The position numbers were made by a program, and so were the translations under genes. This document shows, one piece after another, positions 18,533 to 29,897 of a stretch of DNA of 64,000 nt. Origin of the DNA: Seonamhaeicola sediminis (GTDB taxonomy: Bacteria > Bacteroidota > Bacteroidia > Flavobacteriales > Flavobacteriaceae); assembly GCF_004358095.2 (NCBI RefSeq), contig NZ_SMZJ02000006.1, positions 124,001 through 188,000 on the forward strand, in the 5' to 3' direction. Position 1 is the stretch's first letter. Every line of letters starts with the position of its first letter. The notes below the pieces were generated by a model. It was not told the origin of the DNA and did no database searches. It saw only the letters and a program-made list of their open reading frames with translations.

Positions 18533-20725
18533 ATGGAGATGCAACAATTTCATTACGATAATAAAATCGTTACAAAGTTCATTTATGCCACAATAATTTT
18601 TGGGGTTGTAGGTATGCTAGTAGGATTACTATTGGCATTTATGTTTTTATTTCCTAATCTTACCGATGGTATTTCATGGCTAAGTTTTGGTAGATTAAGA
18701 CCATTACATACCAACGCAGTTATTTTTGCTTTTGTGGGTAACGCTATGTTTGCAGGGGTTTATTATTCGCTTCAGCGTTTACTTAAAACCCGTATGGCGA
18801 GTGACCTTTTAAGTAATATTAACTTCTGGGGGTGGCAGCTCATTATTGTAGCAGCAGCTATTACGCTTCCGTTGGGTATTACAACCTCTAAAGAATACGC
18901 CGAATTAGAATGGCCTATAGATATTGCCATTGCACTTGTGTGGGTGGTGTTTGGCGTGAACATGATTTGGACTATTTTAAAACGCCGTCAACGTCACTTA
19001 TACGTTGCTGTTTGGTTCTACATAGCTACTTTTGTTACCGTTGCTGTACTTCATATTTTTAATAGTTTAGAATTACCTGTAAGTGCTTTAAAAAGTTATT
19101 CGGTTTACGCTGGTGTTCAAGATGCCTTGGTACAATGGTGGTATGGTCATAATGCGGTTGCGTTCTTCTTAACCACACCATTCTTAGGTTTGATGTACTA
19201 CTTTATTCCTAAAGCAGCCAACAGACCGGTTTACTCTTATAGATTATCTATTGTACACTTTTGGTCGCTAATATTTATTTACATATGGGCTGGACCTCAC
19301 CACTTATTATATACTGCTTTACCTGAATGGGCTCAAAACTTAGGAGTTACATTCTCAGTGATGTTATTAATGCCTTCTTGGGGTGGTATGATAAACGGAT
19401 TATTAACCTTACGTGGTGCTTGGGATAAAGTTAGAACAGACCCTGTTTTAAAATTTATGGTAGTAGCTATTACAGGTTATGGTATGGCAACCTTTGAAGG
19501 GCCTACACTATCTCTAAAAAACGTTAATGCTATCGCTCACTTTACTGATTGGATTATTGCACACGTACACGTAGGGGCCTTAGCCTGGAACGGTTTCATG
19601 GCTTTTGGTATGATTTATTATTTGGTACCAAGACTATTTAAAACCAAATTACACTCGTTACCATTGGCCAACCTGCATTTCTGGTTAGGTACATTAGGAA
19701 TCATAATATATGCATTACCAATGTATGTTGCTGGTTTTACACAAGCTAGTATGTGGAAACAGTTTAACCCAGACGGCACTTTAGTGTATGGTAATTTTTT
19801 AGAAACAGTTACTGAAATTATACCAATGTACTGGATGCGTGCTATTGGAGGTTCCATGTATGTTATTGGCTTGTTAATATTAGTGTACAACGTTTGGGTA
19901 ACTATCAAACAAGGTAGTAAAGTTGAAGATGAATTAGCGGAAGCACCTGCCTTAGAACGTGTAACTAAAAGACGTACTGCTAATGAAGGTTGGCATACTT
20001 GGTTGGAAAGAAGACCAGTACAATTAACGTTATTAGCTACTGTAGCCATTTTAATTGGTGGTATTATTCAGATTGTACCAACCATTATGGTGAAATCCAA
20101 CATACCAACCATTGCTAGCGTACAACCATATACGCCTTTAGAGTTAGAAGGTAGAGATATATACATACGAGAAGGTTGTGTTAGTTGTCACTCACAAATG
20201 ATTAGACCATTTAGGAGTGAGGTAGAACGCTACGGTGAATATTCTAAAGCTGGGGAGTTTGTTTATGACCATCCGTTTCTTTGGGGTAGTAAACGTACAG
20301 GACCAGACTTACACAGAATTGGTGGTAAATACAATGACAACTGGCACTTTAATCATATGTACGATCCACAAAGTACCTCATCTGGTTCTATCATGCCACG
20401 TTACCCTTGGTTAATTACTGGTTCGTCAAGCACCCTAGATAAATCGCAAACCGAAGCTAAAATGCGTACCATGGTATCATTGGGAGTTCCATATTCTGAT
20501 GAAGACATTGCTAATGCTCAACAAAACATGTTAGATCAAGGCACTCAAATTGAAGAGAACCTGAAATCAGACCCAGACTTTGCTAAAAACTATGAAGCAG
20601 ATAAAAAATATGCTACTGATAATGGTGAAGCATTTGTAGAGATGAAGAACAGAGAGATTGTAGCGCTTATTGCTTATTTACAGCGCTTAGGAACAGATAT
20701 CAATGTGGAAACAGCACAGAACTAA
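18533..20725 (+). CDS. ccoN: cbb3-type cytochrome c oxidase, fused CcoN-CcoO subunit
   Basis: A 730-residue fusion. Residues about 1-475 are the twelve-helix CcoN catalytic subunit with haem and copper ligands in histidine-containing helices (HTNAVIFAF, YGHNAVAFFLTTPF, IYIWAGPHHLLY, HVHVGALAWNGF). Residues about 500-730 are CcoO: one membrane helix, then a cytochrome c domain with CVSCH at 549-553 and downstream methionines as possible axial ligand. The fused CcoNO is characteristic of Bacteroidota. It reduces oxygen with high affinity using electrons from CcoP and pumps protons. It is followed by ccoQ 18 bases later. Confidence 0.95.
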   Translation: MEMQQFHYDNKIVTKFIYATIIFGVVGMLVGLLLAFMFLFPNLTDGISWLSFGRLRPLHTNAVIFAFVGNAMFAGVYYSLQRLLKTRMASDLLSNINFWGWQLIIVAAAITLPLGITTSKEYAELEWPIDIAIALVWVVFGVNMIWTILKRRQRHLYVAVWFYIATFVTVAVLHIFNSLELPVSALKSYSVYAGVQDALVQWWYGHNAVAFFLTTPFLGLMYYFIPKAANRPVYSYRLSIVHFWSLIFIYIWAGPHHLLYTALPEWAQNLGVTFSVMLLMPSWGGMINGLLTLRGAWDKVRTDPVLKFMVVAITGYGMATFEGPTLSLKNVNAIAHFTDWIIAHVHVGALAWNGFMAFGMIYYLVPRLFKTKLHSLPLANLHFWLGTLGIIIYALPMYVAGFTQASMWKQFNPDGTLVYGNFLETVTEIIPMYWMRAIGGSMYVIGLLILVYNVWVTIKQGSKVEDELAEAPALERVTKRRTANEGWHTWLERRPVQLTLLATVAILIGGIIQIVPTIMVKSNIPTIASVQPYTPLELEGRDIYIREGCVSCHSQMIRPFRSEVERYGEYSKAGEFVYDHPFLWGSKRTGPDLHRIGGKYNDNWHFNHMYDPQSTSSGSIMPRYPWLITGSSSTLDKSQTEAKMRTMVSLGVPYSDEDIANAQQNMLDQGTQIEENLKSDPDFAKNYEADKKYATDNGEAFVEMKNREIVALIAYLQRLGTDINVETAQN

Positions 20726-24709: not shown

Positions 24710-24775
24710 CTATTAGTAATATTAACAATATTAATAGTTAAATTCGTTTTTATAATAGTAATGCTATTATATTTG
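24710..24775 (+). promoter_or_regulatory. Promoter and putative operators of the TetR-led export operon
   Basis: TATATTTG (24768-24775) is a consensus -7 element, starting transcription about 13 bases before the TetR ATG at 24794. ATAATAG-N5-CTATTAT (24752-24770) is a perfect dyad overlapping the -7 element, well placed for autorepression. A second near-palindrome, from CTATTA to TTAATAG around AAC, lies at 24710-24737. The rest of the 183-base gap shows nothing else. Confidence 0.5.
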
Positions 24776-24793
24776 CAATTAAAATTATTATAT

Positions 24794-25465
24794 ATGGACT
24801 CGTTACTTTCAAACTTAAAGATTGCTGTTCCTGAAAAAATATATGTAAAAGATCCAGAATCTTCAGATTTAGGTAAGCGTATAGTGGAGCATAGCATCAT
24901 ATTAATAGATGATATTGGTTTTGATAGTTTTACCTTTAAAAAACTAGGAACATGCATTGGTTCTAACGAGAGTTCTATATATCGTTATTTTGAAAGCAAA
25001 CATAAATTGCTGTTGTATTTATCATCTTGGTACTGGGCCTGGATTGAATATCAATTGGTTTTTGAAACGCATGCTCTTGATCCAAAAAACAAATTAGAAA
25101 AAGCTATAGAAGTAGTAACAAGAGTTATTAAGGAAGATTCTAATTTTTCGCATATCAATGAAATAGCACTTAACAGAATTATGGTTAATGAAAACTCTAA
25201 ATCATTTTTAACTAAAGAAGTAGATCAAGAAAATAAAGATGGGTATTTTGTTGTATACAAACGCATAGTTTACAGACTTAGAGATATGGTTAAAGCTATG
25301 AAGCCTAATTACAAATTTGCTTCAAGTTTAGCAAGTACAATCTTGGAGGCTAGTTTACATCAGCATTTTTTAAAAGTACATTTCACATCTATTACAGATT
25401 GTAATAACGAAACAACCCCAACAGATTTTTTAAAAAACTTAGTGCTTAATACCTTGAAAAATTAA
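24794..25465 (+). CDS. TetR-family transcriptional regulator
   Basis: A 223-residue regulator. The N-terminal helix-turn-helix runs through GKRIVEHSIILIDDIG, FDSFTFKKLGTCIGSNESSIY and RYFESKHKLLLYL, the typical TetR pattern. The ligand domain is helical. The frame is open upstream to an ATG at 24761, but that would start before the -7 element and add an unconserved leader, so the ATG at 24794 is chosen. The gene is 2 bases before the ABC gene and is the first of a four-gene operon. A dyad over its promoter suggests autoregulation. Confidence 0.82.
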   Translation: MDSLLSNLKIAVPEKIYVKDPESSDLGKRIVEHSIILIDDIGFDSFTFKKLGTCIGSNESSIYRYFESKHKLLLYLSSWYWAWIEYQLVFETHALDPKNKLEKAIEVVTRVIKEDSNFSHINEIALNRIMVNENSKSFLTKEVDQENKDGYFVVYKRIVYRLRDMVKAMKPNYKFASSLASTILEASLHQHFLKVHFTSITDCNNETTPTDFLKNLVLNTLKN

Positions 25466-25467
25466 TT

Positions 25468-27126
25468 ATGGAACAAACTAAAATGACACCATGGCGCAGA
25501 CTTGTGGGACTGCTACAATTGGAAAAAAGAGATATTCTACAAGTATTTTACTATGCTATTTTTGCAGGTGTGGTTGCTTTATCATTACCCCTTGGTATAC
25601 AAGCTATCATAAACCTAATTCAAGGAGCTCAAATTTCAACATCATGGATTATACTTGTTATTATAGTTACATTAGGTGTAGCTTTTCAAGGTGCTTTACA
25701 ACTCATGCAGTTGCGGATAATTGAAACTATTCAACAACGTATCTTTATGCGGTCTTCTTTTGAATTAGCTTACAGGTTTCCAAAAATAAAAATGGCAGAG
25801 TTACGCCAGTACTATCCGCCAGAGTTAGCCAATCGTTTTTTTGATACACTAACTATACAAAAGAGTCTATCAAAAATATTAATTGATGTGCCAACAGCAG
25901 TATTACAAATAGTATTTGCTTTAGTTTTACTGTCTTTTTATCATCCATTCTTTATCATTTTTGGACTATTATTATTGATACTTGTATTTGTAGTATTCAA
26001 ATTTACAGCAATAAAAGGTCTAGAAACTAGCCTAAAAGAATCTAAAAACAAATACAAAGTTGCTCATTGGATTCAAGAAATTGCACGTTCTGTAATAAGT
26101 TTTAAATTATCTGGAAGTACAAATTTAGGCATTAACAAAAATGACTATTTAGTTGATGGCTACTTAAAAGCAAGAGAAAGTCATTTTAGAGTTTTAATGC
26201 TGCAATTCATTCAAATGATTAGTTTTAAAGTTATTGTAACGGCAAGTTTACTTTTAATTGGAGGCGCTTTGGTTCTTAATCAAGAAATGAATATTGGCCA
26301 ATTTGTTGCTGCCGAAATCATAATTATACTAGTTATAGCCTCTGTTGAAAAACTTATACTTGGGTTAGAATCGTTTTACGACACATTAACATCTTTAGAA
26401 AAAATAGGACAAATAGTTGATAAAACTTTAGAAAGTCAATCTGGAGAAGAACTACAAATAACTAAAGGTTTAAAGATAGAATTAGAGAATGCATCTTATG
26501 AAGTAGATAATAGAGACAAGCATATTCTAAGAGGTATTTCGCTTGAAGTAAATTCTAAAAGTAGAATACTAATTAAAGGAGAAAGTGGTGCTGGAAAATC
26601 TACCCTATTGCGTTTGCTATCAGGTGTTATTGAGGCCACTGGAGGAAATGTTTATGTTAATGACATGTCTATTAACAGTTTGCACTTAAACTTTTTCAGA
26701 TCTCAATTAGGTCTTTCATTGTCTGATGAAAGCCCTTTTGAAGGTACGCTAAGAGAAAATCTCACTTTTTCTAACCCCAATATTACAGATGATAAAATTC
26801 ATGAAATACTCAACATAGTAGGTTTAAGAGAATTTCTCAAAGAACAACCTGATGGCCTCAACACCATTTTATATCCTGATGGAAAGCGACTTTCTTACAC
26901 CATTTCTAAAAAGTTGGTTTTGGCACGAGCCATTTTAAAGGAACCAAAAATTTTGATTTTGGAAGATGCTCTAGATAGGTTTAATGAAAATGAAACAACC
27001 GCTATTATCGATTATTTAACAGATAAAAAGCAACCTTGGGGACTTGTAGTAGTAAGTAGTAGTAGTGTTTGGATAAACAAATGCACTGAGATAATTACAT
27101 TAGAAAAAGGTTCAATAAAAAAATAA
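25468..27126 (+). CDS. ABC transporter half-molecule (permease + ATPase) with degenerate catalytic motifs
   Basis: A 552-residue protein with an N-terminal exporter-type membrane domain (about residues 1-320, four to six helices) and a C-terminal nucleotide-binding domain. Walker A is intact (GESGAGKS, 371-378). Other motifs have diverged: the Q-loop glutamine position is S419 (LSLSDESPF), the LSGGQ signature reads LSYTI (475-479), Walker B reads ILILED with E499-D500 in place of Asp-Glu, and the switch-histidine region reads VVVSSSS (527-533). No second ABC gene is present, so a homodimer would have two altered sites. It lies in an operon with a HlyD adaptor and a TolC-like channel. Substrate unknown. 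Confidence 0.85.
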   Translation: MEQTKMTPWRRLVGLLQLEKRDILQVFYYAIFAGVVALSLPLGIQAIINLIQGAQISTSWIILVIIVTLGVAFQGALQLMQLRIIETIQQRIFMRSSFELAYRFPKIKMAELRQYYPPELANRFFDTLTIQKSLSKILIDVPTAVLQIVFALVLLSFYHPFFIIFGLLLLILVFVVFKFTAIKGLETSLKESKNKYKVAHWIQEIARSVISFKLSGSTNLGINKNDYLVDGYLKARESHFRVLMLQFIQMISFKVIVTASLLLIGGALVLNQEMNIGQFVAAEIIIILVIASVEKLILGLESFYDTLTSLEKIGQIVDKTLESQSGEELQITKGLKIELENASYEVDNRDKHILRGISLEVNSKSRILIKGESGAGKSTLLRLLSGVIEATGGNVYVNDMSINSLHLNFFRSQLGLSLSDESPFEGTLRENLTFSNPNITDDKIHEILNIVGLREFLKEQPDGLNTILYPDGKRLSYTISKKLVLARAILKEPKILILEDALDRFNENETTAIIDYLTDKKQPWGLVVVSSSSVWINKCTEIITLEKGSIKK

Positions 27127-27138
27127 AAATACTTAGTT

Positions 27139-28497
27139 ATGCTTAACATCACTCATAACCAGTTGAACAAAAAAATAGACTTATCAGAGTACAAGTCTGG
27201 TAAGGATATTATGAATAAAAAATACTACAAATATTTTAATAGGTTCCTGTTAGGAGCAGCCTTGTTAATATTAATTGTTCTGTTTTTACCATGGACACAA
27301 AATATTACTGGAGATGGTTTGGTAACCACATTAAAACCAAATCAAAGACCACAAACTATACAATCGCAAATTCCAGGTCGGATAGAAGAGTGGTTTGTAC
27401 AAGAGGGTGATTTTGTACAAGCTGGCGATACCATTTTACGAATCTCTGAAATTAAAAGTGATTATTTTGATGATAGATTGGTAGAACGTACAAATGAACA
27501 AATACAAGCAAAATCCTCTTCTGTTAATGCCTATGGTGGTAAAGTAGAGGCTTTAAAAAGACAAGTTTCAGCTTTAGAAAAAGAACGTGGTTTAAAACTA
27601 GAGCAAACCCAAAATAAATTGCTTCAAGCCAAACTTAAAGTACAAAGTGATAGTATTGATCTAGAAGCGGCCACAACAAACCTCAAGATTGCTGAAACCC
27701 AATTTAATCGTGAAAAAACATTACAAGACGAAGGTTTAAAAGCGGTTAAAGATGTAGAGGAAAAACGATTAAAACTTCAAGAAACACAGGCTAAATTTAT
27801 TTCACAACAAAACAAATATTTAGCAAGTAAGAACGAAGTAATCAATGCTGAAATTGAACTCTCAAGAACACAAGCAGAGTACGCTGATAAAATATCTAAA
27901 GCTCAAAGTGATATGTTTACTGCGCAATCAAGTCAATTAGATACGCAAGCACAAGTTACCAAACTAGAAAATACATACACTAATTATAAAAAAAGAAGCA
28001 GCCTATTGTATGTTACAGCTCCTCAAAGTGGATTTATTAATAAAGCCATTGTTGGTGGTGTTGGCGTTACCTTTAAAGAAGGTCAAGAACTGGTGGGTAT
28101 TATGCCTGGGCAGTATGATTTAGCCGTAGAAACTTTTGTAAGACCCATAGATTTACCCTTAATACACATTGGCGAAAAAGTAAGAGTACAATTTGACGGT
28201 TGGCCTGTTATTGTATTTAGCGGATGGCCAAATGTGTCTTATGGTACCTATGGTGCCAAGGTAGTAGCTATAGAAAGATTTATTAGTGACAACGGAAAAT
28301 ATAGAATTTTGTTAGCTCCTGATGAGGAAGATCACGAGTGGCCAGATGCTATTAGAGTAGGTTCTGGTGCTAAAACTATTGCTTTACTAGATGATGTACC
28401 CATTTGGTTTGAGTTATGGCGTCAAATTAACAGTTTCCCACCAAACTATTATGAGCCACAAAATGGTAAAGCAGATTCTAAAAAAGATAAAAAATGA
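27139..28497 (+). CDS. HlyD-family membrane fusion (periplasmic adaptor) protein
   Basis: A 452-residue protein with a cytoplasmic N-terminus of about 35 residues, one membrane helix (FLLGAALLILIVLFLPW), a biotinyl-lipoyl-like half (IPGRIEEWFVQEGDFVQAGDTIL) and a long coiled coil (about residues 110-285, rich in Q, E, K, with EKRLKLQETQAKF). The second lipoyl half is around TAPQSGFINKAIVGGVG, followed by a beta-barrel domain. It would bridge the ABC protein and the outer-membrane channel. Its stop overlaps the next start by 4 bases. Confidence 0.88.
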   Translation: MLNITHNQLNKKIDLSEYKSGKDIMNKKYYKYFNRFLLGAALLILIVLFLPWTQNITGDGLVTTLKPNQRPQTIQSQIPGRIEEWFVQEGDFVQAGDTILRISEIKSDYFDDRLVERTNEQIQAKSSSVNAYGGKVEALKRQVSALEKERGLKLEQTQNKLLQAKLKVQSDSIDLEAATTNLKIAETQFNREKTLQDEGLKAVKDVEEKRLKLQETQAKFISQQNKYLASKNEVINAEIELSRTQAEYADKISKAQSDMFTAQSSQLDTQAQVTKLENTYTNYKKRSSLLYVTAPQSGFINKAIVGGVGVTFKEGQELVGIMPGQYDLAVETFVRPIDLPLIHIGEKVRVQFDGWPVIVFSGWPNVSYGTYGAKVVAIERFISDNGKYRILLAPDEEDHEWPDAIRVGSGAKTIALLDDVPIWFELWRQINSFPPNYYEPQNGKADSKKDKK

Positions 28498-29897
28498 GAT
28501 TAGCCCTATTCATTTTCATAATATGCTTGAGTAGTATTCTTTCAGCACAAGAGAATACATCAATAATGTCGCTTTCAGAATACCTAGGTTATGTAAAATC
28601 CTATCACCCAATAGTAAAACAAGCTAACTTGGTAATAAATGAAAGTGAAGCAAAACTCATGAAAGCTAGAGGTGCTTTTGACCCCAAGCTAGAAGTTGAT
28701 TATGATCGTAAAAAATTTAAAAACACAGAGTACTATGATCGTTTAAATGCCACTTTTAAAATTCCTACTTGGTTTGGTATTGAGTTTAAAGGAAACTTTG
28801 AAGAAAACACAGGTGACTTTTTAGATCCCCAAGCCATTGTTCCAGAAGATGGACTTTATAGTGCAGGTGTATCCATTCCTGTAGCTCGAGGTTTTTTAAC
28901 AAATGAGCGGATGGCCATGTTAAGGCAATCAAGGTTGTTTATAAAACAAGCTCAAGCCGATAGACAATTACTTGTAAACAATATTTTATACGAAGCCACG
29001 GTAAGCTATTTTAATTGGTTGAGGCTTTATAACGAAAAAAGAGTTTATGAAGAATTCTTGACAAACGTTAAAATTCGTTTTGACGGTATAAAGAAAAGTT
29101 ACGAAGTAGGCGACAAACCTGCTATAGATACATTAGAAGCCAGAATTGCCTTAAACAATAGACGATTAAACTTAGAAAAAGCTAGAATTAAGTTTGTAAA
29201 ATCGAGTTTAGAGTTGTCAAATTTTTTATGGCTGAATGATAATACACCTATTGAGATTGGGGATAATATAATTCCTGATATTTCAACTTTTGATAATATT
29301 GACACTACCTTAAATACATTTGGATTAGAAGTTGAAAGTTTTGATATTGAAAGCCATCCAAAGTTACAATCATTAGACTTTAAAATTCAAAGTTTAACAA
29401 TTGAGAAACGCTTAAAACAAAATAATTTATTACCTCAAATAGATCTTGAATACAATTTCCTGTCTGAAACTCCAGATGTGGTAAGGTCTTTTAGTTCTGC
29501 AGCTTATAAAAGTGGTGTTAATGTTAGTTTTCCATTGTTTTTGAGAAAAGAACGCGGCGACTTAAAGCTTGCTACAATTAAATTAAAAGACACAGAATTT
29601 GAAGTTCAAAATACTAGAATAAGCCTAATCAATAAAATTGACGCCATTAATCAAGAATTAGATTCTTATGTAACTCAAAATAATTTTACCAGTGTCATTG
29701 TTGATGATTACACTAAAATGTTAACTGCAGAAGAACGCAAATTTTTCTTAGGTGAAAGTTCCTTATTCTTGGTAAACTCTCGAGAATCTAAACTAATTGA
29801 CGCAAAACTAAAAGCCATTGAAATTGAAAATGATTTCTTAAAAACTAAAGCAAACCTATTTAATGTGTTAGCACTAGCAGATGTTGATACGGAATAG
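28494..29897 (+). CDS. TolC-family outer membrane efflux protein
   Basis: A 467-residue protein with a signal peptide (MRLALFIFIICLSSILSAQ). It has the repeated helical hairpins of the OEP/TolC fold, with conserved segments near YHPIVKQANLVINESEAKL and DTLEARIALNNRRLNL. It forms the outer-membrane channel of the tripartite exporter. ATGA overlap with the adaptor gene indicates coupling, and a terminator follows directly, closing the operon. Confidence 0.88.
   Translation: MRLALFIFIICLSSILSAQENTSIMSLSEYLGYVKSYHPIVKQANLVINESEAKLMKARGAFDPKLEVDYDRKKFKNTEYYDRLNATFKIPTWFGIEFKGNFEENTGDFLDPQAIVPEDGLYSAGVSIPVARGFLTNERMAMLRQSRLFIKQAQADRQLLVNNILYEATVSYFNWLRLYNEKRVYEEFLTNVKIRFDGIKKSYEVGDKPAIDTLEARIALNNRRLNLEKARIKFVKSSLELSNFLWLNDNTPIEIGDNIIPDISTFDNIDTTLNTFGLEVESFDIESHPKLQSLDFKIQSLTIEKRLKQNNLLPQIDLEYNFLSETPDVVRSFSSAAYKSGVNVSFPLFLRKERGDLKLATIKLKDTEFEVQNTRISLINKIDAINQELDSYVTQNNFTSVIVDDYTKMLTAEERKFFLGESSLFLVNSRESKLIDAKLKAIEIENDFLKTKANLFNVLALADVDTE

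Follow-up and report, generated by a model that had tools for sequence, protein, structure and literature searches.

An ABC-type tripartite exporter without the residues of ATP hydrolysis, and relatives without a nucleotide-binding domain, suggest another source of energy

Background

Among known systems, the ABC proteins of type I secretion and the PCATs (HlyB, PrtD, LssB, PCAT1) share with the family described here both the gene trio with HlyD and TolC and the exporter fold, whereas the present family lacks the catalytic motifs, and five of its members with N-terminal extensions show no Pfam C39 domain (E ≤ 0.1). Heterodimeric ABC exporters (TM287/288, TmrAB, TAP, BmrCD) provide a parallel for the catalytic residues, with Asp in place of the catalytic Glu at the degenerate site, but they keep one good site by way of a partner encoded in an adjacent gene, and the operon analysed here encodes no such partner.

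An exporter transmembrane domain (TMD) can couple to protons on its own. LmrA-MD, which lacks the nucleotide-binding domain (NBD), performs proton symport that requires Glu314 of TM6 (PMC2704374, PMC6155054), and the likewise NBD-less MsbA-MD performs proton-coupled efflux (PMC4979069). Glu283 of the protein studied here is a putative counterpart of Glu314. Both LmrA-MD and MsbA-MD are laboratory truncations of active ATPases, whereas the loss of the NBD in the present family is natural and old. In the SbmA/BacA (SLiPT) proteins, as described in PMC13316013, an ABC exporter-type TMD functions, or is believed to function, with no NBD; a full-length ABC transporter has been proposed as the ancestor, acidic residues of the membrane part are conserved, and SbmA is a relative of the ABC TMDs that is driven by protons through a glutamate ladder. 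SbmA differs in that it imports peptides, belongs to the YddA lineage, carries an extra TM0 and has lost the coupling helices, whereas the present family has an HlyD-TolC export operon, a TMD of the PF00664 family, retained intracellular loops and living intermediates with eroded NBDs.

A literature search, with subscription papers and preprints outside its scope and thus weak as evidence of absence, returned no publication that deals with this family or with HlyD-TolC systems lacking an NBD. The ATP dependence and ion drive of ABC exporters have so far been argued from the engineered truncations of LmrA and MsbA and from the distant SbmA. Here we describe a widespread export pump of bacteria that looks ATP-driven, lacks the chemistry for burning ATP and has relatives devoid of the ATP-handling part, a combination that suggests another source of energy.

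The operon and its ABC protein

The window, that is, the whole stretch of 64,000 nucleotides of Seonamhaeicola sediminis DNA that was analysed, contains a tetR-ABC-hlyD-tolC operon with cbb3 oxidase genes on one side and usp-hemN on the other strand. All features listed below lie on the + strand. The first gene of the operon encodes a TetR-type regulator (24761..25465) and the second, identified from its open reading frame, Pfam matches and alignment, an ABC half-exporter of 552 residues with a degenerate NBD (25468..27126; hereafter P0001); they are followed by the genes for an HlyD-type periplasmic adaptor (27139..28497) and a TolC-type outer-membrane efflux protein (28494..29897). An inner-membrane pump, an HlyD adaptor and a TolC channel are encoded together, and the open reading frames and Pfam matches bear out the initial annotation, which had described a complete tripartite operon with a single ABC gene: no second ABC gene is found in the operon, and none of the other ABC exporters present in the genome adjoins it. 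Given that the operon supplies no partner, both ATP sites of a P0001 homodimer would be degenerate.

The TMD of P0001 spans residues 6-325 (25483..26442) and is the part retained alone in the NBD-less clade described below; the NBD, delimited by Pfam and the predicted structure, spans residues 335-550 (26470..27117). Pfam recognizes ABC_membrane (PF00664) at residues 28-291 and ABC_tran (PF00005) at residues 354-501, the latter over positions 1-135 of the 137 in the profile, and the top NCBIfam scores are those of type I secretion permease/ATPases, all below their cut-offs. The structure model (pLDDT 74.7, pTM 0.46) has its best Foldseek matches in TM287/288, TmrAB and PCAT1, with HlyB also matched (by Foldseek and VIA), and its NBD superposes on that of TAP1 (2ixf_C) over 225 residues with an rmsd of 2.0. 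The predicted fold is that of a normal type IV ABC exporter, in which the exporter TMD continues into an NBD of ABC fold; SbmA is absent among the fold matches listed for the model, which has no bearing on the fold. P0001 is 98% identical to the protein of locus L038, and the genome of the window is close to Seonamhaeicola aphaedonensis.

Catalytic motifs

The controls for the motifs of the NBD were three full-length exporters encoded in the same genome (L002-L004); all three are canonical at Gln419, Asp499 and His531, and two of the three at Glu500 (P0001 numbering). At the equivalent alignment columns, P0001 has Ser419 in place of the Q-loop Gln (26722..26724), LSYTI at residues 475-479 in place of LSGGQ (26890..26904), Glu499-Asp500 in place of the Walker B Asp and the catalytic Glu (26962..26967), and Ser531 in place of the switch His (27058..27060). 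The Asp of the D-loop is replaced as well, by Asn at position 506. The Walker A motif GESGAGKS is intact (residues 371-378; 26578..26601), and the A-loop Tyr344 and the signature Ser476 are also retained.

The possibility that canonical motifs reside at shifted positions was considered and rejected. Neither the alignment nor a motif scan reveals a displaced copy, SGGQ, SGG, GGQ and GEQ do not occur anywhere in P0001, and the only His residues after residue 331 are those at 352, 406 and 445. The earlier statement that nearly all catalytic motifs except Walker A have diverged is confirmed, with every substitution that it named found at an equivalent column. Among the features of an ATP-hydrolysing exporter, P0001 possesses the Walker A Lys and Ser/Thr and is devoid of the Walker B Asp and catalytic Glu, LSGGQ, the Q-loop Gln and the switch His.

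Conservation in the Flavobacteriaceae

Within the family to which the window belongs, 177 of 299 genomes contain a single match at E ≤ 1e-80. The gene context is conserved: among 74 loci, hlyD is present in all 74, tetR in 72 and tolC in 67, some of the flanks being too short to include tolC. The altered residues are conserved too. In the 86 distinct sequences, the Walker A Lys and the Ser/Thr at 378 are each invariant and the A-loop position is aromatic in 84, whereas Asp499, Glu500, His531, Gly477, Gly478 and Gln/Glu479 are absent from every one; Ser476 is kept in 70 and the Q-loop Gln419 in seven, and the exact Glu499-Asp500 swap is found in 75. The counts given here and below leave out two rows at contig ends (L247, L248), the broken gene of L249, the split gene of L250, L082, and the duplicates L151, L155, L171 and L198; L246, which repeats L200, was removed from the distinct counts.

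Both domains are under purifying selection, with dN/dS values of 0.018-0.110 for the NBD and 0.013-0.052 for the TMD in the 8 of 11 pairs with computable dS, ratios that are rough because the other three pairs are saturated and many dS values exceed 1. The NBD evolves faster than the TMD in 7 of the 8 pairs.

The conserved altered residues and the low dN/dS of the NBD argue against decay in the lineage of the window, and decay is rejected there. As a rival account, a gene that is losing its function while canonical relatives persist elsewhere could invoke the further residue changes in other lineages, including the loss of Walker A residues in one full-length protein and in part of the genomes of family f10; against it stand the open frames throughout the Flavobacteriaceae, the retained neighbours, the strong purifying selection, and an NBD-less clade that is both widespread and clean, so that this account is scarcely credible. 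The initial annotation had left the choice between a distinct subfamily and a decaying gene to a survey of homologues, and this survey points to a conserved subfamily, in which homologues with the same tetR-hlyD-tolC context carry the same altered residues instead of canonical motifs.

The invariant Walker A motif and the purifying selection imply that the NBD still has some role in the lineage of the window. That role might be a slow or altered ATPase activity, with the Glu-Asp swap as a rearranged Walker B that sustains slow hydrolysis, and the near-uniform retention of Walker A, of the A-loop aromatic residue and of the swap itself, under such low dN/dS, is what this proposal would predict. 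Yet the signature Gly and Gln, nearly all the Q-loop Gln residues and the switch His are gone as well, and the same hlyD-tolC system occurs elsewhere without an NBD, or with one from which the P-loop Lys is missing. We consider persistent slow hydrolysis unlikely.

A graded series of NBD erosion

Across the phylum, 76 of 296 genomes have a match to the family at E ≤ 1e-40. The 15 basal members, which belong to other classes, all retain the Walker A Lys and the Walker B Asp-Glu pair, and 13 of them the switch His, but none has the Q-loop Gln and the full signature is rare. In most members of the Bacteroidia type, the Walker B Asp-Glu and the switch His are gone. Among 54 other NBD-bearing Bacteroidota, the Walker A Lys is kept in 52, Asp499 in 12, Glu500 in nine, both acidic residues in one, and His531 in two. 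Asp499 and Glu500 thus occur together in 15/15 basal members, 0/86 Flavobacteriaceae and 1/54 other NBD-bearing Bacteroidota, against 0/13 in the Sphingomonadales discussed below, and the Walker A Lys in 15/15, 86/86, 52/54 and 0/13, respectively. Several long members of family f10 also lack the Walker A Ser/Thr, and in a full-length protein from another genome (L129, G341:C4) Walker A has disappeared, with YEHPLFVR at that place and a Pfam ABC_tran score of 22.2, below the cut-off of 25. By sequence comparison, P0001 occupies one stage of a series that grades from a near-canonical NBD to none. That the series runs from canonical towards eroded is deduced from the ancestral activity of ABC NBDs, the trees being midpoint-rooted only.

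A further form of erosion is found in Sphingomonadales, where 15 plasmid records (Novosphingobium, Sphingobium, Croceicoccus, Sphingomonas) carry a relative. The 13 that were examined are full-length frames of 558-584 residues in which the Walker A Lys, Asp499 and His531 are each absent from all 13 and Glu500 is kept in one; in the two proteins tested with Pfam (L252 and L253), ABC_tran does not score above its cut-off. All five annotated loci with long flanks have an adaptor gene (HlyD-type or biotin/lipoyl-binding) and tolC downstream. The Sphingomonadales branch of the tree is very long and its letter make-up odd, so that no more than broad homology is secure. For genes of the present family the label "ABC transporter ATP-binding protein" is incorrect or questionable, as it is for these P-loop-less ones, which carry it.

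A fourteenth Sphingomonadales relative, on a plasmid of Sphingopyxis sp. 113P3 (L254), matches over only 74% of the query and was excluded from the motif counts; an IS3-family transposase gene is annotated some 300 bases downstream of the region that matches.

Relatives without an NBD

Four of the 76 phylum matches consist of a TMD alone (333-339 residues), in every case with hlyD and tolC downstream. In three families surveyed at E ≤ 1e-25, NBD-less members, recognized by open-frame length, are present in 23 of 151 genomes (65 with a match), 33 of 101 (96 with a match) and 23 of 100 (85 with a match), 79 of 352 in total; six genomes with cut, unchecked or broken genes (G620, G720, G725, G797, G803, G828) were left out of these counts. 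Sequence inspection covered 65 distinct members of the 80 NBD-less genes. In 66 of 67 short loci, of which one is a repeat, leaving 65 distinct, and most of which include only about 1.5 kb of flank, hlyD starts between -25 and +107 nucleotides from the TMD stop, and no remnant of an NBD lies between the two.

The 67th short locus (L250; G803:C99:46000-50500) does not reflect a loss of the NBD but a gene that is split or frameshifted: the frame for an N-terminal extension and the TMD comes to an end, and the 743-nucleotide gap before hlyD contains an NBD with 53% identity to the one in L211. In a tree of 70 representatives built from the TMD columns only, the NBD-less proteins form a single clade (bootstrap 100, SH-aLRT 100) nested within a clade of 54 rows (100/100) in which NBDs are eroded, the exact sister group being weakly resolved. 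The tree indicates a single loss of the NBD, from among proteins whose NBD was already eroded. Two independent losses, as seen in a quick first tree that counted L250 as NBD-less, were rejected; with L250 a split gene, one loss remains.

The existence of these relatives implies that the system can do without ATP hydrolysis by a subunit of its own. Hydrolysis could instead be supplied by an unlinked ABC protein or a stand-alone NBD that pairs with the TMD. Exporters are known that form heterodimers in which one of the sites is degenerate; the genome of the window encodes three full-length exporters whose motifs are canonical or nearly so; NBD matches number 16-23 in each of four NBD-less genomes; and the NBD-less members retain their intracellular loops, with a first coupling helix that stays conserved. 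The opposing evidence is that the operon has a single ABC gene, that 77 of the 79 NBD-less genomes contain no NBD-bearing member of the family at E ≤ 1e-25 (G757 and G789 have one), that no obvious family-like NBD was seen in the four genomes, where the best matches are other exporters at 28-35% identity, and that the second coupling helix shows more relative variation where the NBD is missing. The search for a partner beyond the operon, which the initial annotation had proposed, yielded only canonical, unlinked exporters in the genome of the window, which speaks neither for nor against a partner in trans; on balance, an engine of this kind is improbable.

No conserved fourth gene accompanies the NBD-less operons in a comparison of ten loci, six of which include only 1.2-2 kb upstream and one of which (L246) repeats another (L200); the open reading frames common to at least two NBD-less loci are the TMD, hlyD, tolC or frames antisense over the operon. 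An ABC fragment with LSGGEKTRL upstream of L170 was rejected as a component of the system, since it looks like an unrelated protein, presumably of the ABC-F type. Two NBD-less relatives match PF00664 above its cut-off and have no match to the SbmA/BacA family at E ≤ 1.

Conserved charges in the membrane domain

The codon for Glu283 in TM6, placed by alignment of family members, lies at 26314..26316. Position 283 is acidic in 232 of 233 distinct members of the family, including all 65 NBD-less ones, and the sole exception (L139, Gln) belongs among the members with the best-kept NBD. The canonical controls are few, comprising three exporters of the same genome, which have Ile at this position, together with ComA (Asn) and ABCB10 (Leu), both weakly aligned. 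Further charges, namely Glu86, Lys136, Asp140, His159, Lys195 and Lys295, are kept in most groups, some of them being replaced in Sphingomonadales.

The invariance of the TMD, the adaptor and the outer-membrane channel, coupled with a tolerated loss of the ATPase, would also fit a passive conduit, opened by the substrate or by the binding of ATP without energy input. The retention of Glu86, Lys136, Asp140, His159, Glu283 and Lys295, however, would seem to exceed the needs of a passive pore, and we regard such a conduit as rather improbable.

The NBD-less proteins retain full-length intracellular loops. From basal through intermediate to NBD-less members, the second coupling helix becomes relatively more variable (0.82, 1.00, 1.23) and the first relatively less so (1.25, 1.22, 1.00), with the helix ranges assigned from general exporter topology. 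As read from the alignments, the rise in the second helix fits the absence of a docking NBD, whereas the fall in the first points the opposite way, and the result is mixed.

Energy source and evolution

We propose, with a probability of about one half, that these ABC-type TMDs with their HlyD and TolC partners constitute a tripartite exporter family that no longer depends on ATP hydrolysis and in which the TMD is driven by an ion gradient, by analogy with the truncated exporters and SbmA. Transport through the TMD dimer would be powered by the gradient, most simply of protons, by way of Glu283 and other conserved charges, and the dimer, joined to HlyD and TolC, would export the substrate. In the lineage of the window, the NBD probably serves a structural or regulatory purpose and binds ATP without hydrolysing it. 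One guess is that the absence of the signature, the Q-loop and the catalytic residues keeps the protein from being locked in a closed ATP sandwich. The initial annotation had considered that the protein might hydrolyse ATP slowly, serve as a gated channel or operate in some new way; the NBD-less relatives favour the last of these and disfavour slow hydrolysis.

Observations on the model exporters count against the ion-driven reading. MsbA transport is blocked by a dead NBD (deletion of Lys382) or by AMP-PNP (PMC4979069), and LmrA without the Walker A Lys388 loses ion transport (PMC2704374), so that an NBD which does not hydrolyse ATP could be inhibitory.

If the exporter is ion-driven, an ATP-driven tripartite exporter may have become so separately from SbmA, with the TM6 glutamate as the coupling site, a history that we put forward tentatively and at somewhat less than even odds. 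The Q-loop and signature would have eroded first and the Walker B and switch His next; later, one lineage would have discarded the whole NBD while, separately, the Sphingomonadales proteins lost the P-loop inside a full-length frame. HlyD and TolC would have been retained throughout, and the TM6 glutamate would have taken over as the coupling site. This would be a conversion from a primary to a secondary transporter with its intermediates still alive. The family presents, in nature and with the same periplasmic adaptor and outer-membrane partners, every stage from a near-canonical NBD to none in many genomes. With all these stages alive in cultured organisms, Novosphingobium aromaticivorans DSM 12444 among those that carry a member, the question of ATP versus ion drive is directly testable.

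Other observations

N-terminal extensions of about 130-260 residues are present in many of the proteins L132-L142, L149, L150, L211-L213, L215 and L216, L136 being without one, and genome G345 has two full-length copies of the family (L123 and L131) with extensions of about 155 residues. A C39 peptidase origin of the extensions was considered and rejected on the Pfam result for five proteins given above. Plasmids of Riemerella anatipestifer carry relatives (H4-H7) that are 37% identical and annotated as ABC transporter ATP-binding protein. Upstream of the operon, at 18533-20725 of the window, lies a frame of 730 amino acids that we take, from its resemblance, to be a fused CcoN-CcoO subunit of cytochrome cbb3, and a cbb3 cluster precedes the exporter in many loci of the Flavobacteriaceae.
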